From contig JAPOJV010000012.1 in the NCBI GenBank assembly GCA_029978085.1, positions 1-42,564 of the forward strand: DNA of 42,564 nt, written 5' to 3'. The notes below the pieces were generated by a model. The model did no database searches, was not told the origin of the DNA, and saw nothing but the letters and a program-made list of their open reading frames with translations. The translations under genes were made by a program, and so were the position numbers. The stretch comes from a bacterium. Its GTDB lineage: Bacteria; Planctomycetota; Planctomycetia; Pirellulales; UBA1268. Below are positions 8,701-32,886 of the stretch, in pieces; within the stretch, counting starts at the first letter, position 1, and each line of letters begins with the position of its first letter.

Positions 8701-10199
8701 GCGTCACGCACGAGGATGAGCACGTCGACATCGAGTCGCTCGATCCCGACACCGGCTACTTCGTGCAGAAGCTGCTTGGTCACGAGCGAGAGGGCTTCCT
8801 CTGGCAGAAGCTGCGGGCGCCGCGGAGCTATGACTACAAGAAGGCCGAGAACAAGTCGTACAACGAGCGGTATCGCATGCCGCAGTTCCCGTTCGACGCG
8901 AAGCAGCGGGAAGCGGTGATGACGTTCGTGCTCGGTCTCGTGGCGGAGCCGCCGGCGCCGCAGTACGTGCACAAGCCAGGGCCGCGGGAGCAGGCCCGGC
9001 TCGACGGCCTCGTCGTCGCCGAGCAGTACAACTGCGGCGGCTGCCACGCCCTGCAGATGGATCGGTGGGATATCCGTTACAAGCCGGGCTCGCTCGGCGA
9101 GGCGACCGAGATCGCCGACTACCCCTACCTGTCGCCGCATTTCACGGATCAGCAGGTGGCCTCGTCGCTCGCGACGGATCGGCAGGGGCGGCGGAAGGCC
9201 TCGCTCGTCGGGATGCCGCTGCTCGATCCCGTCACAGGCAAGCCGCAACTCGTCGACGAGGATGGTGTGCCGATCGAAGAGGGCGACGAGGAGGCGGTGG
9301 TCCATCGCCCCTTCATGCTCTGGCGCGACGTGCTGATCGACGGTGAAGCTCGTCAGGTGGGTGCGCAGAACCTCGTCGTGCCCGACGATGCGATCGCGGC
9401 CGGCCGTCACTACCCGGCCAAGGGGGGCGATCTTGCGAAGCTCCTCTTCCCGGTAGTCATCGCCGACGAGAAGCAGATCAATCCGAACGTGAAGCCGGAT
9501 GATGCCTGGGGCTGGCTGCCGCCGCCGCTGGTGGGCGAGGGGCGGAAGGTGCAGTCGGCGTGGCTGCACAAGTTCCTGCTCAATCCGCACCCGATCCGTC
9601 CGCCCGCGGTGCTGCGGATGCCGAAGTTCACCTTCAGCTCGCATCAGGCAGGCGCGCTGGTCAACTACTTCGCTGCGGTGGACGGGGCGGAGTATCCGTA
9701 CGTCTACGACCCGCGGCTCGACGAGAGTGCGATCGAGGCGAAGGAGACGACGAAGCCCGGCCATCTGGAGGGCGCCCTCAAGATCGTCACCAACACGAAC
9801 TACTGCGTGAAGTGTCATCTCGTGGGCAGCTACTCGCCCCCGGGCAATCCGAAGGCATTGGCGCCACAGTTGGAGCGGGTGCACGAACGGCTCCGGCCGG
9901 ACTACGTGCACAACTGGATCGCCAACCCCAAGCGGTTCCTCCCGTACACCGGCATGCCGGTCAACATCCCGTTCGACAAGCCGGTGAGCCAGGAGCTCTA
10001 CGCGGGCACGAGCGAGCAGCAAGTGGAGGCCCTCACCGACCTCCTCATGCACTTCGACCTGTTCGCGAAGCGGAGCCTGTCGCTCGAGGCCTTCCTCAAG
10101 CAGCCGCCGCCGACTGCGGAGCCGAAGCAAACCCAGGCCCGACCTGACGGCCGCTCGCCCGCCGATCGCTCGCCGTCGGGAGGCGTGGCACTAAACTGA
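5718..10199 (+). CDS. Giant eight-haem cytochrome c with PDZ-like domain (bc-complex associated)
   Basis: A 1493-residue membrane-anchored periplasmic cytochrome. One N-terminal helix (about residues 14-36) is followed by a long charged Ala/Leu-rich, probably coiled-coil region to about residue 255. Eight CxxCH haem sites start at residues 296 (CTTCH), 450 (CTICH), 505 (CLKCH), 541 (CYGCH), 745 (CLACH), 915 (CYSCH), 1106 (CGGCH) and 1363 (CVKCH). Between the first two, about residues 345-435, there is a PDZ-like fold (VSVVVPESPAAEAGLAVGDV). A His/Gly-rich patch lies near 957-976. Local repeats such as WLYSWLRNP and WLYSWLREP show duplication of cytochrome modules. It follows the cytochrome b genes, so it probably takes the place of cytochrome c1/f as electron outlet; that role is inferred. 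Part of the C-terminus is Pro-rich. Confidence 0.9.
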   Translation: MPATEQTWRNLKILHVVFGLVAIVLLLATVLMLAADHNRPWKKYARGFRNLETWSAAARVAEQDSAAYEARRTELEDQLAAARRADLDAALAKQFIAQVRTVPADAEAADRAQLDVDQLASQADPDERLVLRGDLLARLRDIAKRAKFREDLLAGALKLRKAELDKNRADYELAVAESLPQQRQTELLALADAKRAEVNAATLEFQAANTHRKELDATLLKLTADEDAAAKAVADHRAKLAQLQKTLADRKPNAGKAVLELPVLDAFNGPLRVDQLWLPQLTLNNNFRDVARFDRCTTCHRGMDKSVPGAPTEAAYKQSQLVSLRLPTPGSAPESTVTQGDGNAQLEKLYGFQLAPRGLFNADDPTVSVVVPESPAAEAGLAVGDVIAEVGGGKTLGRSVALTSLIETPQWGKPLTVEVRRGVPQPYSSHPRLDLFVGDSSPHPMKTFGCTICHQGQGSSTSFKWASHSPDSPKQAHEWHDEHGWFNNHHWILPMLPQRFEESSCLKCHHQVVDLEPSEKFPEPPAPKLVEGYHLIRQYGCYGCHEINGWSGPDKRIGPDMRLGPNYHEVAEALAVDGGLAQLGPTVGRWLEEVKSSPDGGAARERLREAIERDAAAGAEAKLSPRSHELASLLKDPETPGTLPKVGPSLRHVASKVGFDWLYSWLRNPQDFRPSTKMPRFFGLWDHLEGKGLEESMRYEPLEIRSMIHYMTQASAPFDYVKPYAGITAAADPVRGRKVVQLRGCLACHQHADFPEAQSTHGPTLSRIGAKAASNPRGREWLYSWLREPARYHPKTIMPNVLLEPETLADGSVADPAADATEYLMRSTENWKPENIPSATSLTQDERAALDELALMYLKERFPAARAEVILKDGLAAAQQTVIKGDEQLLAGLGQNRDATLLHYVGKKTVGKLACYSCHDIPGFEDGKAAGAALADWGRKDPSRIAFEQVSHFVMHQLAGGHGGHGGHHGHGPAADHGGSPAAGDDPFPKDLAYGVTHEDEHVDIESLDPDTGYFVQKLLGHEREGFLWQKLRAPRSYDYKKAENKSYNERYRMPQFPFDAKQREAVMTFVLGLVAEPPAPQYVHKPGPREQARLDGLVVAEQYNCGGCHALQMDRWDIRYKPGSLGEATEIADYPYLSPHFTDQQVASSLATDRQGRRKASLVGMPLLDPVTGKPQLVDEDGVPIEEGDEEAVVHRPFMLWRDVLIDGEARQVGAQNLVVPDDAIAAGRHYPAKGGDLAKLLFPVVIADEKQINPNVKPDDAWGWLPPPLVGEGRKVQSAWLHKFLLNPHPIRPPAVLRMPKFTFSSHQAGALVNYFAAVDGAEYPYVYDPRLDESAIEAKETTKPGHLEGALKIVTNTNYCVKCHLVGSYSPPGNPKALAPQLERVHERLRPDYVHNWIANPKRFLPYTGMPVNIPFDKPVSQELYAGTSEQQVEALTDLLMHFDLFAKRSLSLEAFLKQPPPTAEPKQTQARPDGRSPADRSPSGGVALN

Positions 10200-10273
10200 T
10201 AGGGATGCGGCCAGCTTCCGGCCGCGAGCGTCCTGCCGTGTTCGATCCCGCCTCGATGTTTCGGAGACCTGTC

Positions 10274-11050
10274 ATGCTCAAATCGATTGCCCGTGGTTTC
10301 GTCGTGGCTGCCGCCTGCGGCGCCGTGTCGGCTGCCCATGCCGATGAGTGGGGGTCCATCAAGGGCCGGTTCGTGTTCGGGGGCGACGCGCCGTCGGCCG
10401 CCGAGCTCAAGGCCGATAAGGACGTCGAGGTCTGCGGCAAGCACAAGCTCGTCGCCGAGGAACTCGTCGTCGGCGCCGACAAGGGCATCGCCAATGTCGT
10501 CGTCTATGTCCGCGACAAGGGCGTGAAGGTGAATCCCGAACTGGCGTCGGCCGCGGCTGGCCAGAAGCCCGAACTCGACAACAAGGATTGCCGGTTCGAG
10601 CCGCACGTGCAGTTCGTGCAGACCGGACAGGAGCTCGTGATCAAGAACTCCGACTCGGTCGGCCACAACAGCAACGTCGCCACGGTGAAGAACCCGCCGT
10701 CGAACAACCTGATCCCCTCCGGTGGCCAGACCACCGTGAAGTTCTCGAGCGATGAGGCGATTCCCGCTCAAGTGACCTGCAACATCCATCCCTGGATGAA
10801 GGCGTGGCTCGTCGTTCGCCCCAATCCGTATGCCGCCGTGTCGAAGGCCGACGGCAGCTTCGAGATCAAGGGCGTGCCGGCCGGCGAGGTCGAACTGCAG
10901 TTCTGGCACGAGAAGGCCGGCTACATCGGCGAGATGACCATCGGCGGCAAGGCCGAGAAGGCCGCGAAGGGCCGCAAGAAGGTCGCCGTCGCCGCCGCCG
11001 GCACGGATCTCGGCGAGATCGTTCTGGCCCCGGGTGTGTTTCAGAAGTGA
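10274..11050 (+). CDS. Secreted cupredoxin-like protein (copy 1)
   Basis: Predicted periplasmic blue-copper-like protein of 258 residues. The chosen ATG follows a GGAGA ribosome site and gives a clean signal peptide (MLKSIARGFVVAAACGAVSA, cleavage near AHA-DE); upstream in-frame ATGs at 10205 and 10256 would lengthen it. Candidate type-1 copper ligands are H131 (VGHNSN) and the C169-x2-H172-x2-M175 cluster (TCNIHPWM), the usual His-Cys-His-Met order. After it comes a small beta domain, YAAVSKADGSFEIKGVPAGE, like carboxypeptidase-regulatory/SpaA-type repeats. Placed between the multihaem cytochrome and the oxidase genes, it could shuttle electrons or deliver copper. Which of these it does is not determinable here. 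Confidence 0.83.
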   Translation: MLKSIARGFVVAAACGAVSAAHADEWGSIKGRFVFGGDAPSAAELKADKDVEVCGKHKLVAEELVVGADKGIANVVVYVRDKGVKVNPELASAAAGQKPELDNKDCRFEPHVQFVQTGQELVIKNSDSVGHNSNVATVKNPPSNNLIPSGGQTTVKFSSDEAIPAQVTCNIHPWMKAWLVVRPNPYAAVSKADGSFEIKGVPAGEVELQFWHEKAGYIGEMTIGGKAEKAAKGRKKVAVAAAGTDLGEIVLAPGVFQK

Positions 11051-22260: not shown

Positions 22261-24664
<2,404 letters not shown>

Positions 24665-25609: not shown

Positions 25610-26101
25610 ATGACGGCAGGTGACTCATTGTTTTCAGCCGCAGACGGTGCGGACGAGAGCGGTCCCCGCATCCTGCCGATCTGGGCCGCTCCCACGATCG
25701 GCGACCTCGTGGCGACAGCCGTAGCCGCCGCACGGCGTGACGCTCCGGCCGTACGGTTCGCCTGTGACATCGACCCGCAATTGGCCAGATGCGGCGATCC
25801 GCAGCCGCTGGCCCGTCTGCTCGAAGGTCTCGTGCAGCAGGCTGTCGCAGCCGCAGTCGTGCCCGATCCACAGAGCGACCTGCGCCCGCTGTGCGAGGTG
25901 GTGGTGACGGCCGTCGATACCGGCGCCGCGGTGGAGATCGAGGTGGCCGACTCGGGCAACGCCCGGGCCGCGGTCGCGAACGAGTTGGAAACAAGCGCGG
26001 CACGGCTCGGCGGCTCGCTGCTGGTCACCGCCTGTCCCGAAGGGGGAACCGCGGTGACGCTCCGGCTGCCGCGGCGGCGGGCCCGGGGGATGGCCGCCTG
26101 A
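25610..26101 (+). CDS. Degenerate HATPase-like protein
   Basis: 163 residues; AAGGAGG lies just ahead of the ATG. The pattern VRFACDIDPQLARCGDPQPL, then LLEGLVQQAVAAAV, then VVVTAVDTGAAVEIEVADSG, then AARLGGSLLVTACPEGGTAV and TLRLPRRR follows the Bergerat ATP-binding fold of histidine kinases. The N-box Asn is absent (LVQQAV), and the G1 DxGxG reads DSGNA, so ATP binding is doubtful. No phosphoacceptor His domain is present. It precedes fliF by 15 bases and is likely in the same operon. It could be a regulator of the export genes, or unrelated. Confidence 0.6.
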   Translation: MTAGDSLFSAADGADESGPRILPIWAAPTIGDLVATAVAAARRDAPAVRFACDIDPQLARCGDPQPLARLLEGLVQQAVAAAVVPDPQSDLRPLCEVVVTAVDTGAAVEIEVADSGNARAAVANELETSAARLGGSLLVTACPEGGTAVTLRLPRRRARGMAA

Positions 26102-26116
26102 CCTGGAAGCAGACCG

Positions 26117-27694
26117 ATGAACGATCAGTTCACAGACACGACGACAGGACGACTGCCGCGGTTCACCGTGGCCCAGGTACTCGCGCTCGGGCTCGTGGCC
26201 GCCGCGGTCGGCTGGGCCGCCTGGCTCGTCCGTGACCGGCCGATCAACGAGGAGGTCGAGCTGCTGCCGGGCACCGTGCTGCCGTCGTCGGAGATGGCGA
26301 TCATCGAGGCCGCCTTCGACCGGGCCCAGCTCGTCGATCATCGCACCGAGGATGGCCGGGTATGGGTGCCGCGGCCCCGGCAGAGCGCCTACATGCGGGC
26401 GCTGGTCGACGCCGAGGCGCTGCCGCGTGAGTTCGGCAGCAGCCTCAAGCGGGCACTCGAGAAGAACAGCCCCTGGCAGAGCCGGGCGGTGCAGGAAGAG
26501 ATGCTGCGGGTCGCCGTGCAGGAAGAACTCGCCCACGTGATCTGCTCGATGCCGGGCATCGAGCGGGCCGCCGTGTTCACCGACGTGGCCGAACGGGCGG
26601 GGCTCGACGGCGGCATGGCCGCCGGTCCGGTGAAGACCGCGAGCGTCAATGTCCGCACGCAGCCCGACGTGGAACTCGAGCCGGCACGGGTGCAGGCGAT
26701 CCGCGTGCTCGTGGCGGCATCGATCGCCGGCCTGAAACCCGAACACGTCGCCGTCACCGACCTGCGGAGCGGCCGGGTGTATGCCGGACCGCTCGTGGCC
26801 GACGTCGAGCACGACGACCTGTCCGTCGATCCCGACCTCGCCCGCCGCGTGGCCCATGAGCGGCACCTCGCCGCGAAGGTGCGGCAGGGCATGGCGTTCG
26901 TCAAAGGTGCGATCATCGACGTGACCGTCACGCTGCCGCTCGCCGCACCGGCGGTCGTGGAGCCGCCGGCGCTGCCCGAGCCGCAGCGGCCGCGGGGTGA
27001 TCAGCCGGTGGCCGGCGCGAATGCACCGGCCGAGATCGCGGCGTCCGTCGCGCCGGCGGCACCGGCACCCCCGGTGCTCGCCACGCCGCCACAGTCCGCC
27101 GGACCCGACTCGATCCTCGTGTCGATCGCCGTGCCCGATAGCTATTTTCGGTCGGCCGTTCAGGCGACGCTGGCCCGCGATCCGGCAGGCGATGCGGCGG
27201 CCGCGTATCGCCGCGAACGCGAGCGGCTCATCGAGCATGTGCGCGGCCTCCTCCCGCACACGCCCGATCCGGCTGACTGCCGCGTGATGCTGACGGAGTT
27301 TGCGGCCACGCCGAGTCGTGGCTCACGGCCGGTCGCCGCGGCCCTGCCGCCGGTACCCAGGTCTGCCGGAGCCTTGCCGTTGGGCACGGCCGGCGCGGTG
27401 GCACAGGCCGTCCGCACACCGACCGTGGACCAGCAGCCCCGCACGCCCGGCCAGATTCTCGATGCCGCCTGTCAGGCCGTCGCCCGGGGTGAGATGGCAG
27501 CCGTGCCGCGCGAGGCCTGGGTCGTCGTGATCGTCGTCTCGGGAGCCGTGCTGGCCTGGATGCTCCTCGCCGCTGCGGTTGCGCCGCGGCCTGCCGGGCG
27601 GCCCCGGCGTCGCAGCCAGGCGCGGATCGACTGGAATGCGATCGACGTGCAGGGTGACGACGACGCCCCGCCGGCCCGCAAGGTGGCGGCATGA
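26117..27694 (+). CDS. fliF: FliF-like M-ring protein
   Basis: The YscJ/FliF family forms the membrane ring on which flagella or type III export gates are built. 525 residues: N-terminal helix about 18-36, then ring-building domain with YMRALVDAEALPREFG, RVAVQEELAHVICSMPGIERAAV, and KTASVNVRTQPDVELEPARV ending in GLKPEHVAVTDLRSGRVY. This last stretch is typical of FliF. A Pro/Ala-rich middle follows, then a C-terminal helix (VVVIVVSGAVLAWMLLAAAV, about 470-489). Only about 35 residues remain after it, shorter than the FliG-binding tail of classical FliF. It starts the FliF/OP/Q/R/FlhB run and overlaps the next gene by 4 bases. Confidence 0.87.
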   Translation: MNDQFTDTTTGRLPRFTVAQVLALGLVAAAVGWAAWLVRDRPINEEVELLPGTVLPSSEMAIIEAAFDRAQLVDHRTEDGRVWVPRPRQSAYMRALVDAEALPREFGSSLKRALEKNSPWQSRAVQEEMLRVAVQEELAHVICSMPGIERAAVFTDVAERAGLDGGMAAGPVKTASVNVRTQPDVELEPARVQAIRVLVAASIAGLKPEHVAVTDLRSGRVYAGPLVADVEHDDLSVDPDLARRVAHERHLAAKVRQGMAFVKGAIIDVTVTLPLAAPAVVEPPALPEPQRPRGDQPVAGANAPAEIAASVAPAAPAPPVLATPPQSAGPDSILVSIAVPDSYFRSAVQATLARDPAGDAAAAYRRERERLIEHVRGLLPHTPDPADCRVMLTEFAATPSRGSRPVAAALPPVPRSAGALPLGTAGAVAQAVRTPTVDQQPRTPGQILDAACQAVARGEMAAVPREAWVVVIVVSGAVLAWMLLAAAVAPRPAGRPRRRSQARIDWNAIDVQGDDDAPPARKVAA

Positions 27695-29037
27695 CGGGCC
27701 GCGGATGGCTCGTCGGGGCGGCATGGCTGGCCTGTGCGGCCGCCACGGTCGCGGCCGAGTCGCCGCCGGCACCGCTTCCGGAGACAACGGCGTCTGCGAT
27801 CCAACCCGTGGTGCTGCTCGACGAGCCGCCCGCTGCCGGACCACGGTCGGCGGCTGCACAGCCGGCGGCCGCGCTCGGTGAATGGCGACTGCTCGCCGCG
27901 CTCGGCGGTGCCTTCGCCGTGCTGGCCGCCTTTCGGTTCTTCTCGCAGCGGCGGCCCGCCACGCTGCCCCCCGATGTGTTCGAGGTGCTCGGGTCGGCGC
28001 CATTGGCCGGAGCCCAGTCCGTGCGGATCGTGCGGTTCGGTCCGAAGACGCTCCTCGTCGGCGTCTCGTCGGCGGGGGCCACGACACTCGCCGAGATCAC
28101 CGACCCGCAGGCCACGGCTCTGATCACGGCCGCCTGCCGCGGCCAGGCCCGGCCGGCGGTCGCAGCGAAGCGGTCATCGACGGTGTCGGCGCTGCTCGCC
28201 TGCGTGCTGGCCTCCTGCTGCTGGGCCGCGTTGCCCGCCGTCGCGGTGGCCGCCGAGGGGGACGTGCCACCGCTGCCCCCCGCAGTGGAGCAGCCGGCCG
28301 TGGTCGCTCCGGCCACGAGCACGCCTGGCAGTGACGGCACAGGCACCGGCGGCAGCCTCGACTCGCTGCTCGGCGTGACCGCCATCGAGGCCGTGCTCCC
28401 GTCGGCCCTCGCCTTCGGCGTCATGAGTCTCGCACCGGCCGTGCTCCTCATGACCACCTGCTTCGTGCGGATGTCGGTCGTGCTCGCGCTGCTGCGGCAG
28501 GGGCTCGGCACCGCGCAGATCCCGTCGAACCAGATCCTCGCGTCGCTGGCGATCTTTCTGTCGGCGCTCGTGATGTGGCCCGTGTGGACGCAGGCCTGGC
28601 GTGACGGCGTGGAACCCTGCCGGCAGGGCACGCTCGCGCCCGCGGAGGCGTTCGAGAAGGGATCGCTGCCGATCCGGCGCTGGATGGCCACACAGATCGA
28701 GCAGGCGGGCAACCGCGACACGATGCTCCTGTTTCTTCAGCGGCATCCCGCGGGGCCGCAGCGGGCGGCCACCTATGACGACGTGCCGGTGGAGGCGCTC
28801 CTGCCGGCCTTTCTCGTGAGCGAACTGGAAACGGCCTTCGCGATCGGCTTCCGGCTGCTGCTGCCGTTCCTCGTGCTCGACATCCTCGTGGCCACGCTCG
28901 TGGTCTCGACGGGACTTGTCATGCTGCCTCCGACGCTCGTGTCGCTGCCGCTCAAGCTCCTCGTGTTCGTGGCCGCCGACGGCTGGACGCTCGTGGTCCG
29001 CTCACTGCTCGACGGCGTACGGGCCGCCACCGGCTGA
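27691..29037 (+). CDS. FliO-FliP fusion protein
   Basis: One uninterrupted 448-codon frame covers two export-gate components. Residues 1-160 resemble FliO: a signal-like start, a helix at about 65-85, and the cytoplasmic motif VLGSAPLAGAQSVRIVRFGPKTLLVGV. Residues about 165-448 are FliP: a signal-like helix (SALLACVLASCCWAALPAVA), then LAPAVLLMTTCFVRMSVVLALL, RQGLGTAQIPSNQILASLAI, and LPAFLVSELETAFAIGFRLL plus the last helices. FliP is normally a separate protein of about 245 residues. An internal GTG at 28183 could also start FliP alone, but its ribosome site is weak. FliP forms the export pore with FliQ and FliR, and FliO aids its assembly. Confidence 0.88.
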   Translation: MTGRGWLVGAAWLACAAATVAAESPPAPLPETTASAIQPVVLLDEPPAAGPRSAAAQPAAALGEWRLLAALGGAFAVLAAFRFFSQRRPATLPPDVFEVLGSAPLAGAQSVRIVRFGPKTLLVGVSSAGATTLAEITDPQATALITAACRGQARPAVAAKRSSTVSALLACVLASCCWAALPAVAVAAEGDVPPLPPAVEQPAVVAPATSTPGSDGTGTGGSLDSLLGVTAIEAVLPSALAFGVMSLAPAVLLMTTCFVRMSVVLALLRQGLGTAQIPSNQILASLAIFLSALVMWPVWTQAWRDGVEPCRQGTLAPAEAFEKGSLPIRRWMATQIEQAGNRDTMLLFLQRHPAGPQRAATYDDVPVEALLPAFLVSELETAFAIGFRLLLPFLVLDILVATLVVSTGLVMLPPTLVSLPLKLLVFVAADGWTLVVRSLLDGVRAATG

Positions 29038-29061
29038 CGGCCGCGCGATGAAAGGCATCCG

Positions 29062-29316
29062 ATGACCGACGGTCAGCTTTTGGAACTCGTGCGCCAGGCC
29101 CTGCTCACCGGCCTCGTCGTGGCCGCGCCGGTCTTGATCGCGGGCTTCCTCACCGGCACGGTGCTGGGCCTCGTGCAGGCCGCCACCGGCGTGCACGAGC
29201 CGATCGTGGGGCTGGTGCCGCGGCTGTTCGTGATGGGCGTGATGATCCTACTCGCACTGCCGTGGATGGTGGAGCGGTTCGTGGAACTGTTTCGCGTGGC
29301 AGTGGGTGGCCCCTGA
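29062..29316 (+). CDS. fliQ: Export gate protein FliQ
   Basis: 84 residues with two hydrophobic hairpin helices (LTGLVVAAPVLIAGFLTGTVLG and RLFVMGVMILLALPWMVERF) and the connecting GLVQAATGVHEP typical of FliQ, which is about 89 residues in other bacteria. It forms part of the FliPQR pore. It lies 24 bases after fliOP and before fliR; the context removes most doubt. Confidence 0.9.
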   Translation: MTDGQLLELVRQALLTGLVVAAPVLIAGFLTGTVLGLVQAATGVHEPIVGLVPRLFVMGVMILLALPWMVERFVELFRVAVGGP

Positions 29317-29359
29317 GGCCGCCGGCGGGTCGCGTCGTTCATCTGGACATCACTCACCG

Positions 29360-30160
29360 ATGGCCGTCTCCTCACTGCTCACGGCGTTATCCGATCCGCT
29401 CCTCGCGGCAGCGGTGCTTGCCCGGATGTCGGCCGCCGTGCTTGCCGGCGCCCTGCCGCTGAGCGACCAGGTGCCGGTCAAGGTGCGCGGCGTGCTTGCT
29501 GTCTGCCTGACGGTGCTCGCGCTGCCGACGGCCACCCACGCGCGGGCTGCGTCCCTGGCAGCGCAGCCGCTGCCCGCCGTCGTCATCGGCGAGGCGGTGG
29601 TGGGGCTCGGCCTCGGACTGGTCGCGGCGGCGATCGTGGCCGCAGCGGCATGGGCCGGCGGGCTGCTTGGCAGCGTGTCCGGGCTCTCGTGGGCCGACGA
29701 CTTTGCCACGGCTGCGGGTGACCCCGAGCCGACGGGCGTCGCGCGGCTGGCGTGGTGGCTCGGCCTGGCGGGCTTCTTCGCCGCGGGCGGCCACCTCGCC
29801 GTGGTCGCCGGCCTGCTCGAGAGCGTCCGTGTGATCCCAGTGGGCAGCCTGTTCGCCGGCGGCGGGGCGGAGTCGCCGCTCGTCGCGGTGGTGGCCGCCG
29901 CACCGGCACTCGCCCTCTCACTCGTCACCGCGCTGGCCGTCCCTGCGGTCACAGCCGTCGTGACGTTTCATCTGGCCCTGGCGATCTGCCTGCGCACCGT
30001 GCGGTTCGATCCGGGGCAGGGCATGCTGCAGGGGCTGGCCGCGGTCGTCGTGATGCTCGCGTTCGTGGCCGGCGCCGAGGCGTGGCTGGGCGGCTTCGGT
30101 GCCGTGGCCCACGCCCAGATCGAGCGGTCGCTCGCCGGCGAATCCTCGCGCGGCCCTTGA
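29360..30160 (+). CDS. fliR: Export gate protein FliR
   Basis: 266 residues, the expected size for FliR. The ATG at 29360 gives MAVSSLLTALSDPLLAAAVL; an upstream ATG at 29306 overlaps fliQ and adds non-conserved residues. Helices fill the protein, with PLSDQVPVKVRGVLAVCLT matching the FliR region before helix 2, and LSLVTALAVPAVTAVVTFHL near the C-terminus. It completes the FliPQR pore. Sequence is more diverged and Ala-rich than typical flagellar FliR. Confidence 0.86.
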   Translation: MAVSSLLTALSDPLLAAAVLARMSAAVLAGALPLSDQVPVKVRGVLAVCLTVLALPTATHARAASLAAQPLPAVVIGEAVVGLGLGLVAAAIVAAAAWAGGLLGSVSGLSWADDFATAAGDPEPTGVARLAWWLGLAGFFAAGGHLAVVAGLLESVRVIPVGSLFAGGGAESPLVAVVAAAPALALSLVTALAVPAVTAVVTFHLALAICLRTVRFDPGQGMLQGLAAVVVMLAFVAGAEAWLGGFGAVAHAQIERSLAGESSRGP

Positions 30161-30200
30161 TGCCGAAGTCGCACCTCACAGCAAACCACTCGGAGCCGGC

Positions 30201-30932
30201 ATGTCGGACTCGGCCGATCGCACGATTCCCGCCACGCCGCGTCGCCGCGAGGCAGCGCGACGGCAGGGGGCGATGCCCGCCTCCGCGGCGCTGGCCTGGG
30301 TGGCCAGTGCCGTCGTCGTGGTGGCGCTCCTGCCGGGCTGGATGCGGACCACGCTGCCGGCCGCGGCCGAGATGGTGCGGGGCGTGATCGCCACGGCCAC
30401 GTCGGCTCGTGCCGACACGCCGGCGGTCAGCGAACTCCTGCCCATGTCGATCCTCGCGCCGAGCCTCGGGCTCGTGCTGGCGGCAGCCGCGGCGGGCCTT
30501 GCGGTGCGGGCCCTCTGCGACGGCATCAGTTGGCAGCCTGCGAGAATCGTGCCGGACCTCGCCCGGATCGATCCGCTCAGCGGCCTGCGTCGTGTCTTCT
30601 CAGGCCGCACGGTCATGGCGGTCATGGGCAACGCCGCCGCGCTGCTGCTGCTGGGCGGCGTGGCGTATACGGTCGCCGGTCCGCTCCTGGGTAGCGGCAC
30701 GCTGGGCGATCCGGCGCGGGCGGCGCTGCTCGCCTGGCGGCAGCTCGGCTGGCTCGTCGCCGCGGCTGCGGTGATCGCGGTGTGTCAGTATGCGCTCGCG
30801 CGGCTCCGGTTCGAGAAGGCGATCCGGATGACGCCGCAGGAATTCGCCGACGAGCAAAAGAGCATGCAGGCCGACCCGAAGGTTCGGCTCATGCAGCAGA
30901 AGCGGCGTGCGACGCCCACCCCGCACGCGTAG
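30201..30932 (+). CDS. flhB: FlhB lacking its autocleaving C-terminal domain
   Basis: The ATG at 30201 gives 243 residues; classical FlhB has about 350-380. The N-terminus reads TIPATPRRREAARRQGAMPAS, the conserved FlhB start. Four membrane helices follow (about 22-44, 84-110, 136-160, 178-202), then the linker KAIRMTPQEFADEQKSMQAD and PKVRLMQQKRRA. In full-length FlhB this linker continues into the NPTH-containing domain, which cleaves itself and switches export substrates. Here the frame ends seven codons later (TPTPHA, stop TAG). A REPIN-like element begins 11 bases on, and no FlhB C-terminal sequence is seen in any nearby frame. Loss by rearrangement is a possible cause. Confidence 0.85.
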   Translation: MSDSADRTIPATPRRREAARRQGAMPASAALAWVASAVVVVALLPGWMRTTLPAAAEMVRGVIATATSARADTPAVSELLPMSILAPSLGLVLAAAAAGLAVRALCDGISWQPARIVPDLARIDPLSGLRRVFSGRTVMAVMGNAAALLLLGGVAYTVAGPLLGSGTLGDPARAALLAWRQLGWLVAAAAVIAVCQYALARLRFEKAIRMTPQEFADEQKSMQADPKVRLMQQKRRATPTPHA

Positions 30933-31103: not shown

Positions 31104-32255
31104 TCAGACCGCCGGCACGGGGTAGCCGTAGCGGTCGATGAATGGACGCCAACGGGTGGCGATCTCACCCACGATTCGCGGGTCGTGGCGATAGGTGTTG
31201 GTGCGATACCGCTTCATCGACTCGCAGTGCGCCTCGAGCGCGGGCCGCATGTGGTCGAAGTCGTCGAGGCCGAGCCGGTCATAGGCCTCGGCGAGCTTGG
31301 CCACCGGGTCGGCCACGAGGTCTTCGTAGCGCATCTCGTGGAGCCGGTCGGGGCCCAGCGTCTGTCGATCGCGGTCGAATGCCGCATACATTTCGTCGAA
31401 GGCGTTGAACACGTACCGCTCGAGTGACTCGCCGCGGTCCACCTGCATGCCCTGCACGTCGTGCAGCGACCGCCAGAGGCGGAGCGTCGAGGGAAAGACG
31501 ACGAAGGGATCGCGAACCACGTGCAGGAACCGGGCCTGCGGAAACATCTCCGCCAGCACGCCCATCCGCGCCGTGTGCGGCGGGCTCTTGAGCACGGGCC
31601 GCCGCTGGTCGCGGACGGCGAGCCGCGCCAGAAACTTCTTCATCGCCCCCTTCCAGCGGGCCTGCTCGGCCGGTGGCAAGAGCGCGACATCGAGCGCCTC
31701 GGGGCGATCGGAGCTCGTCACGGGAAACGCCATCCGGCGATACGGCGACGGCGCGCCCATGTTGACGAGGGCGAATTCGTCCTCCTGCGGCCGGTCCCAG
31801 CCGGCGGCCACGTCGTCCATCGGCCGCTTGGACGGAATGATCCAGGAGAGGGCCGATGTCACGACCGACTCCGTGAGCAGGAAGTGGCCCGGCGCGAAGC
31901 ATTGGTAGGTGTTGGGGCAGCAGAACCGGTCGTCGAGCATCATCAGTTCGTGCAGGAGCGTCGTGCCCGACCGCCAGTGGCCGATGATGAACAGCGGCGG
32001 TGGCGTGGCCGGCGGATCGCGCAACAGCCGGCGAAACCGGGCCTCGGAGAGCGGCTCGGCGAGCGAGTTGAATGCGGCGGCACCGGTCACCGTCGCCATC
32101 AGGCCCCAGCGGCTCGGGGCGATCCGCCAGCGATGCTCGGCCACCAGCGGCAGCCATACGCCCAGCGGCATGCCGTGCCAGAACCGCGGGCTCCACCAGG
32201 GGTAGGCGTGGTAGCTCTTCTCGCCGGTGCCCGCAGGGGGCGGCTGCTGAAACAC
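31104..32255 (-). CDS. Sulfotransferase family protein
   Basis: 383 residues from the GTG at 32253-32255; the frame is open further to an ATG at 32444, but that would overlap the upstream thioredoxin-like gene by 140 bases. PLFIIGHWRSGTTLLHELM near residue 90 is the PAPS 5'-phosphosulfate loop, and ARFLHVVRDPFVVFPSTLRL holds the 3'-phosphate site (RDP...S). These sulfotransferases move sulfate from PAPS to hydroxyl or amine groups; the substrate here is unknown. It ends 17 bases from a REPIN-like element. No membrane helix is evident. Confidence 0.88.
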   Translation of the reverse strand: MFQQPPPAGTGEKSYHAYPWWSPRFWHGMPLGVWLPLVAEHRWRIAPSRWGLMATVTGAAAFNSLAEPLSEARFRRLLRDPPATPPPLFIIGHWRSGTTLLHELMMLDDRFCCPNTYQCFAPGHFLLTESVVTSALSWIIPSKRPMDDVAAGWDRPQEDEFALVNMGAPSPYRRMAFPVTSSDRPEALDVALLPPAEQARWKGAMKKFLARLAVRDQRRPVLKSPPHTARMGVLAEMFPQARFLHVVRDPFVVFPSTLRLWRSLHDVQGMQVDRGESLERYVFNAFDEMYAAFDRDRQTLGPDRLHEMRYEDLVADPVAKLAEAYDRLGLDDFDHMRPALEAHCESMKRYRTNTYRHDPRIVGEIATRWRPFIDRYGYPVPAV

Positions 32256-32304
32256 GTCGAAGAAATCCCTGAAAGGAGCGGACGCAGGCTCCGCAGAGTC
32301 TACC

Positions 32305-32886
32305 TCACCGCTGTTGAACGTCGTCGATGTCGCCGGCGATCCGCTCGGCACTGCCGGGGGCGTCGAGCACGTCGCGGAGCGCGGTGGCCAGTCCCCCCGC
32401 GGCGGCCGAGCCCGTGCCGCGAAACCGCTCCTGGCCCTGGGCATCGATCACGACCACCGTCGGAAACCCACTCACACCGAAGTCCTTGCAGGTGGCGGCG
32501 TCGCGGTCGGCGTCGGCCGCCACGCAGACGAATCGTCGCGCCAGCGACACCACGCCCCGATTGGTGAGCGCCCCCTGCGTGAGTTCACAGCTCCATCGGC
32601 ACCAGCTGGCCCGGAACACGATCAGCATCGGCAGCTGTTCGGTCGCGGCCCGCCGCCGTCCCGCCTCATAGCCCTCCACGTACTCGATGCCGGGCGTGGG
32701 GGCGTGATCACCCCGCGGCATGTCGCGGCCTGTCGCCTCCTGGGCGACCAACGGCCAGATCGCATCGGTGGCCGCCGGCCGCACCGGCTCATCCTGGATG
32801 TCGCAGCCGGCGGTGAGGGCGACAGCCAAGAGACCGGCGGTCAGCTGTGAACGGCCGTGCGGGGCGGAGGGAAAACGAGCCTTCAT
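32305..32886 (-). CDS. Thioredoxin-fold lipoprotein with CxxxC
   Basis: 193 residues beginning MKARFPSAPHGRSQLTAGLL; the hydrophobic stretch ends LTAGC with lipidated C28. The fold core is EQLPMLIVFRASWC, with C96 and C100 spaced as CRWSC instead of the usual CxxC. Later elements are RRFVCVAADADRD, VSGFPTVVVIDAQ (cis-Pro P142) and GLATALRDVLD. Secreted and membrane-tethered, so a thiol-redox or metal role is possible; the extra residue between the cysteines makes classical disulfide chemistry uncertain. It is divergent from the TPR lipoprotein at 33040. Confidence 0.8.
   Translation of the reverse strand: MKARFPSAPHGRSQLTAGLLAVALTAGCDIQDEPVRPAATDAIWPLVAQEATGRDMPRGDHAPTPGIEYVEGYEAGRRRAATEQLPMLIVFRASWCRWSCELTQGALTNRGVVSLARRFVCVAADADRDAATCKDFGVSGFPTVVVIDAQGQERFRGTGSAAAGGLATALRDVLDAPGSAERIAGDIDDVQQR

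Follow-up and report, generated by a model that had tools for sequence, protein, structure and literature searches.

In Salmonella, the flagellar type III export gate exports on the proton motive force (PMF) without an ATPase, FliHIJ are dispensable in suppressor strains, and in cells without a rod the substrates reach the periplasm (PMC4230889). When rod-less, flk-deleted Salmonella were selected for periplasmic export of FlgM, mutations were recovered in the C-terminal part of FlhB, among them a stop codon at residue 258; deleting the full FlhB C-terminal domain likewise resulted in FlgM export (PMC13344023). Here we describe a gate operon at 25610-30932 of a 42,564-nucleotide stretch of planctomycete DNA (termed here the window), which is the entire contig C35 (JAPOJV010000012.1) of a 3.31 Mb genome that is 97.7% complete and assembled in 263 contigs. 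Judged from gene content, the lake-dwelling family to which this bacterium belongs has lost the flagellum but kept the export gate, the flagellar sigma factor FliA and its exported inhibitor FlgM, suggesting that the gate is kept as a reduced secretion or gene-switch device.

Genes retained and genes missing

The open reading frames (ORFs) of the operon are intact and lie on the forward strand. All of them, except an HATPase-like fragment at the start, exceed their Pfam cut-offs, and a gene caller based on coding potential retains the same ORFs as genes:

25610..26101, + strand: remnant of a flagellar sensor histidine kinase, 163 amino acids (aa) (HATPase_c, E 0.0013; alignment)
26117..27694, + strand: FliF, the MS-ring protein, 525 aa (PF01514, E 3.7e-16; no YscJ_FliF_C match)
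27691..29037, + strand: FliO and FliP as a single ORF, 448 aa (PF04347, E 2.1e-7; PF00813, E 2.6e-62)
29062..29316, + strand: FliQ, 84 aa (PF01313, E 2.2e-17)
29360..30160, alternative start 29306, + strand: FliR, about 266 aa (PF01311, E 2.1e-23; start taken from the coding-potential script)
about 30201..30932, + strand: FlhB, limited to the transmembrane domain, about 243 aa (PF01312, E 5.4e-31, profile positions 2-235 of 335)

The FliO-FliP ORF could additionally be aligned with 6f2d FliP (2.2e-41) and retains one Met of the M-gate region. A previous examination of the window from its letters alone (termed here the sequence-only reading) had placed FliF, FliO-P, FliQ, FliR and FlhB together in this interval, and the Pfam matches fall where it put them. 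Its interval for the gate operon holds from FliF onward, but the first gene is the kinase remnant and not a gate gene. Similarly, the absence of FlhA that it reported is true of the window but not of the genome: a profile search of the contigs recovered FlhA on C89 (E 2.7e-181), where it precedes, in this order, a FliA-type sigma factor, a 93-residue FlgM that exceeds its Pfam cut-off, and a FUR-like gene (named by its sequence start only). The FlhB of the window is the sole FlhB in its genome. Neither FliG nor FliI, nor any rod/hook protein or flagellin, was found across this 97.7%-complete genome, extending to all of it the absence of FliG, FliI, rod, hook and filament genes that had been noted for the window.

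The same combination characterizes the whole family, from whose genomes DNA stretches were taken around the loci of interest. FliP and FlhA were each present in 24 of 25 genomes (those without a FliP or FlhA match being metagenome-assembled genomes, MAGs, that are 85% and 77% complete), while rod/hook proteins (Flg_bbr_C), the rotor protein FliG, and FliI above its cut-off (TIGR01026, fliI_yscN) were found in none of the 25. Flagellin above the cut-off was also absent from all 25; a single MAG, 51% complete, gave a weak match below the threshold. FliH and FliJ are not in the operon of this family; FliN, MotA and MotB are not at the operon position that they hold in relatives (no genome-wide search was made for these three), and no secretin or needle genes occur among the conserved neighbours of the gate (again with no genome-wide search). 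Across four genera, the ORFs of the operon are intact. These counts bear out the suggestion of a reduced apparatus distinct from a normal flagellum, for which an export function would be predicted, and no complete flagellar regulon was found elsewhere in the genome or in its 24 family relatives. The named relatives that bear FlhA are planctomycete MAGs, many of them with lake names; a freshwater survey that proposed the families Nixeaceae and Vodnikaceae reported the flagellar apparatus to be restricted to Nemodlikiaceae and three additional MAGs (PMC6461901).

Derivation from a complete flagellar operon

In flagellated families of the order, the gene order runs from lactate/malate dehydrogenase (LDH) and abhydrolase, via further genes, to sensor kinase, response regulator, FlgB, FlgC, FliE, FliF, FliG, FliH, FliI and FliJ, and continues with MotE-like, FliK-like, FlgD, FlgE, FlbD, MotA, MotB, FliL, FliN, FliO, FliP, FliQ, FliR and FlhB, followed in the flagellated genomes G034 and G039 by a sulfotransferase; their FlhA locus reads FlhA, FlhF, FleN-like, FliA (operon genes of relatives that had no Pfam check were named by position and sequence start). 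In the window's family, the corresponding order is LDH, abhydrolase, kinase remnant, FliF, FliO, FliP, FliQ, FliR, short FlhB and sulfotransferase, with an FlhA locus of FlhA, FliA, FlgM and FUR, and genome G026 of another family (f3) has a reduced order identical to it. With identical flanks (LDH and abhydrolase upstream, sulfotransferase downstream) and only the middle missing, the arrangement argues for reductive evolution: on gene order, the operon is the leftover of a complete flagellar operon after deletion of the rod, hook, motor, ATPase and filament genes. Two genomes from two other families, G029 (a single contig) and G036, retain FliG-like and FliI genes together with a short FlhB; no rod/hook protein or flagellin was found in either, and they look like intermediate states of this reduction. 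A non-flagellar type III secretion system (T3SS) was rejected because the locus is syntenic with the flagellar operon of the order and because the ATPase is lacking.

In the window itself, the LDH gene lies at 23711-24664 (+), and this gene precedes the flagellar operon in the window's family and in several flagellated relatives. The sulfotransferase gene, at 31104-32444 (-), is convergent after flhB, an arrangement that the window's family shares with several relatives, both flagellated and rod-less.

Loss of contact surfaces in FliF, FlhB and the kinase

A C-terminal motif of FliF (e.g., VREDPEAAANILRSWIGN), taken to be the FliG-binding tail, is conserved in the FliF of flagellated bacteria and in the FliG-keeping genomes G029 and G036. 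The motif is missing from representatives of the window's family in alignment, so the short tail remarked upon in the sequence-only reading is one that lacks the FliG-binding part. By profile comparison, the alignment between the FliF of the family and that of flagellated bacteria extended through RBM3 and the second transmembrane helix (TM2; E 9.8e-58), with the tail not covered and the beta-collar region shortened. A single-sequence AlphaFold model of FliF was of low quality (mean pLDDT 43.9) and was not used. In G026, FliF (L140:7065-8963) carries a FliG middle domain fused to its C-terminus (8.8e-13), apparently without RBM3, and no FliG_C match was found in this rod-less genome.

When aligned with full-length FlhB of flagellated relatives, the FlhB of the window ends about 35 residues before the NPTE/NPTH switch site, in agreement with the earlier statement that it lacks its switch domain, and a tblastn search of the window and C89, covering other frames and the surrounding sequence, returned no significant match to a leftover C-terminal domain. 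The switch domain with its NPT(H/E) site is similarly missing in representatives of families f1, f3, f6 and f13. In flagellated relatives (L145, L146, L148 and L153), the switch motif reads NPTE, not NPTH. The kinase remnant retains the fold of the catalytic domain, but its phospho-acceptor His region and N-box are gone in alignment; the orthologue at the same position in flagellated relatives has both HisKA and HATPase_c.

Conservation of the gate and of FliA

The charged residues of FlhA involved in proton coupling (R147, R154 and D158) are conserved in the window's family, whose FlhA also retains the full C-terminal substrate-docking domain; at position 208 (Salmonella numbering), all 16 family sequences have glutamate in place of aspartate (e.g., L001:680-2770). 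In other rod-less and in flagellated relatives, position 208 is an aspartate.

Median dN/dS values (NG86, within-genus medians, to be read as a relative measure) were 0.28 for FlhA, 0.34 for FliQ, 0.39 for FliF, 0.44 for FlhB and 0.47 for FliR, as compared to 0.27 for FlgM, 0.085 for FliA, 0.10 for the flanking LDH and 0.30 for the flanking abhydrolase; the kinase remnant was the least constrained gene of the set, at 0.61. FliA is about 80% identical to that of flagellated relatives, versus 84% among the flagellated relatives themselves, and FlhA 42% versus 71%, with long FlhA branches in rod-less lineages. Because median dN/dS is below 1 and FlhA is divergent on long branches, the gate is, by these estimates, under purifying selection with a changed or looser constraint, and FliA is not loosened. 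Upstream of flhA, an element read by eye as TGGAC(A/C/T)-N17-TANNGT(CCC) is conserved in most family loci and in several flagellated relatives, and is apparently the ancestral flhA promoter, retained after flagellum loss.

The FliA-FlgM pair

Directly after FliA, both the window's family and f3 (G026) encode a FlgM above the Pfam cut-off, and the adjacency of the two genes was confirmed in separately fetched loci. Type III secretion signals sit at the N-terminus, and FlgM is conserved in its N-terminal 23 residues (MNIFGVFSTQGSQ..VKGVEA) as well as in its sigma-binding half. Some 75-122 base pairs upstream of flgM, 33 of 36 family loci (e.g., L123; the 36 include some duplicate records of one genome) have a sequence resembling a promoter of the extracytoplasmic function (ECF) type, GAAC(C/T)-N16-CGTA, which occurs in 0.35% of shuffled sequences and suggests that flgM is under the control of an ECF sigma factor. 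In G029, a FlgM-like small protein (L122:9068-9232) adjoins an FlhA C-terminal domain without the membrane part (9499-10923), and a match to FlhA_C only was also found in G038 (C10:357603-358631).

Distribution across the class

Among 397 genomes of the class, FlhB matches form a high- and a low-scoring group, which we split at E 1e-70, a value picked after the scores had been seen. Rod/hook proteins were absent from 98 of the 100 genomes with low-scoring FlhB and present in 217 of the 225 with high-scoring FlhB (Fisher p ~1e-70, relatedness not corrected for), and 60 of the 397 had neither FlhB nor rod/hook proteins. Low-scoring FlhB was checked to be truncated in f1, f3, f6 and f13, truncation elsewhere being read from the score. 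In f21, a family of species with large genomes that is probably the cultured Isosphaeraceae, described as without flagella and poor in flagellar genes, FlhB was low-scoring in all 35 genomes with a match. Families f2, f3, f13 and f15 each hold both kinds of FlhB, making several independent reductions likely on these data. The reduced state thus recurs in other families, tracks low-scoring FlhB class-wide, and appears, from these scores, to be widespread across Planctomycetia, which is in keeping with the sequence-only reading of a distinct apparatus.

A proposed secretion-coupled switch and its alternatives

Gene content, family-wide conservation, orthology by flanks and the matching losses of contact surfaces are given by sequence; the export steps that follow we infer. 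With a probability of roughly 0.5, we propose that the family possesses a gene switch coupled to secretion, or else a system that secretes into the periplasm under a transcriptional checkpoint of its own, in which a PMF-driven gate in its late mode would export FlgM and free FliA. FlhA, FlhB and FliPQR would assemble inside a small FliF ring and be powered by the PMF, without FliHIJ, and with no rod the substrates would be delivered to the periplasm. With its switch domain gone, FlhB would hold the gate permanently in the "late" mode, whose known substrate here would be FlgM, and export of FlgM would release FliA to transcribe a regulon possibly including further substrates. More tentatively, and at somewhat less than even odds, repeated loss of the flagellum across Planctomycetia may have left a type III device reduced to a minimum, and in the window's family without an ATPase, that exports an anti-sigma factor and sigma-28-controlled cargo to the periplasm, with natural FlhB truncation locking the late mode; it would be a flagellum-derived gene switch gated by secretion.

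Several observations count against this proposal. Late export in Salmonella required the removal of Flk and a raised number of basal bodies (PMC13344023). The flgM gene has an ECF-type promoter-like element of its own, and its control is therefore probably altered in the window's family. The divergence of the gate and the long branches of FlhA fit relaxed constraint as well. In addition, FliA sites sought by the enterobacterial consensus TAAA-N14-16-GCCGATA did not exceed a reversed-pattern control in 20 genomes, including that of a flagellated relative, and FliA may have a role independent of the gate in these bacteria. Because this consensus fails even in the flagellated relative, it cannot reveal the FliA regulon, and no obvious replacement motif was seen by eye in the regions upstream of the flagellin genes of relatives.

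Alternatively, the gate might export other periplasmic or surface proteins, such as adhesins, or support type IV pili, with FlgM export being a mere checkpoint or unused. The complete substrate-docking domain of FlhA would be in line with other cargo, as would non-flagellated Lysobacter enzymogenes OH11, whose flagellar T3SS genes export a test flagellin and in some cases affect twitching (PMC7277350); however, no neighbour gene conserved with the gate resembles a substrate or chaperone, and Lysobacter uses FliI, which is missing in the window's family. We regard this explanation as unlikely.

Slightly less probable still is that the gate persists because it serves as the CORE of membrane nanotubes or of another envelope extension (as reported for FliP/Q/R, FlhA and FlhB in Bacillus subtilis), with FlgM and FliA incidental. 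The retained membrane proteins amount to the CORE plus FliO and FliF, an inner-membrane-associated structure linked to the flagellar T3SS occurs in many bacteria (PMC9380563), and a nanotube role of the CORE is cited in PMC7277350. This leaves unexplained, however, why FliF and a FliA-adjoining FlgM were retained, and the hat-like structure of PMC9380563 remains without FliF and in fliP mutants.

Equally doubtful is a slowly decaying remnant of little function, in which membrane genes are merely slower to vanish. Protein divergence above that in flagellated relatives, a sensor kinase reduced to a fragment at a dN/dS of 0.61, and the 60 genomes that are devoid of both FlhB and rod/hook proteins are all consistent with decay. 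Against it, ORFs remain intact over four genera, whereas the genes searched for among rod, hook, FliG, FliI and filament have disappeared; median dN/dS stays below 1 throughout, the charged residues of FlhA are in place, and the reduced state recurs in several families. That flagellar genes reside in unassembled parts of fragmented MAGs is very improbable: most family genomes are indeed MAGs of 70-820 contigs, yet rod/hook, FliG, FliI and above-cut-off flagellin are missing from all 25 although 24 yielded FliP and 24 yielded FlhA, the gap lies inside an operon that is assembled, G022 comprises 20 contigs, and the rod-less G029, from a different family, is a single contig.

We retain the secretion-coupled switch, in which a PMF-driven gate would export FlgM, as our proposal. 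Two questions become testable: whether a flagellar gate without ATPase, rod or appendage can function and be advantageous to retain, which is relevant to the argument that flagella originated as exporters powered by protons, and what role a sigma-28/FlgM checkpoint has in bacteria without a flagellum. The natural FlhB truncations in rod-less lineages parallel the laboratory result of 2026 in which late secretion became possible once the FlhB C-terminal domain was removed. In the open-access literature searched, which portrays these bacteria as having few or no flagellar genes, we found no report of this state, and since the search covered open-access literature only, the missing report is weak evidence of novelty.

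Comparison with known systems

The proteins retained here are those of the Salmonella flagellar gate in its MS-ring (FliF, FliO/P/Q/R, FlhA and FlhB), with the charged residues of FlhA and the FliA-FlgM pair also kept, and the complete flagellar operons of the order share with the reduced operon both their gene order and flanking genes. Unlike the gate of a flagellum, this one occurs without rod, hook, filament, FliG, FliI, the switch domain of FlhB and the FliG-binding tail of FliF. The nearest published parallels are the Lysobacter genes and the nanotube CORE; as read here, neither has been described with this gene set, an FlhB truncation or a FliA-FlgM association. The nanotube CORE of Bacillus subtilis, as cited in PMC7277350, has the same membrane protein set, with FliO/P/Q/R, FlhA and FlhB all present here, but it was defined in a flagellated species. 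Neither FliF nor FlgM is known to be part of the nanotube CORE.

Like the window's family, L. enzymogenes OH11 is non-flagellated and keeps FlhA, FlhB, FliP, FliQ and FliR, but it differs in having kept FliI and in that its genes are not in an operon; that report, as read here, includes no family-wide conservation, FlhB truncation or FliA-FlgM pair (PMC7277350). The rod-less Salmonella FlhB mutants (PMC13344023) share the absence of a rod, an FlhB cut at its C-terminus, FlgM as substrate and export to the periplasm (predicted here), but are laboratory strains with Flk removed and more basal bodies, whereas the state described here is natural and also without FliG and the ATPase. With the injectisome, the reduced apparatus has in common homologous gate proteins and an export apparatus that does not serve motility, and it differs in having no T3SS (SctN-type) ATPase above the cut-off (TIGR01026); since its orthology lies with the order's own flagellar operon, it is, on synteny, a reduction separate from that of the injectisome.

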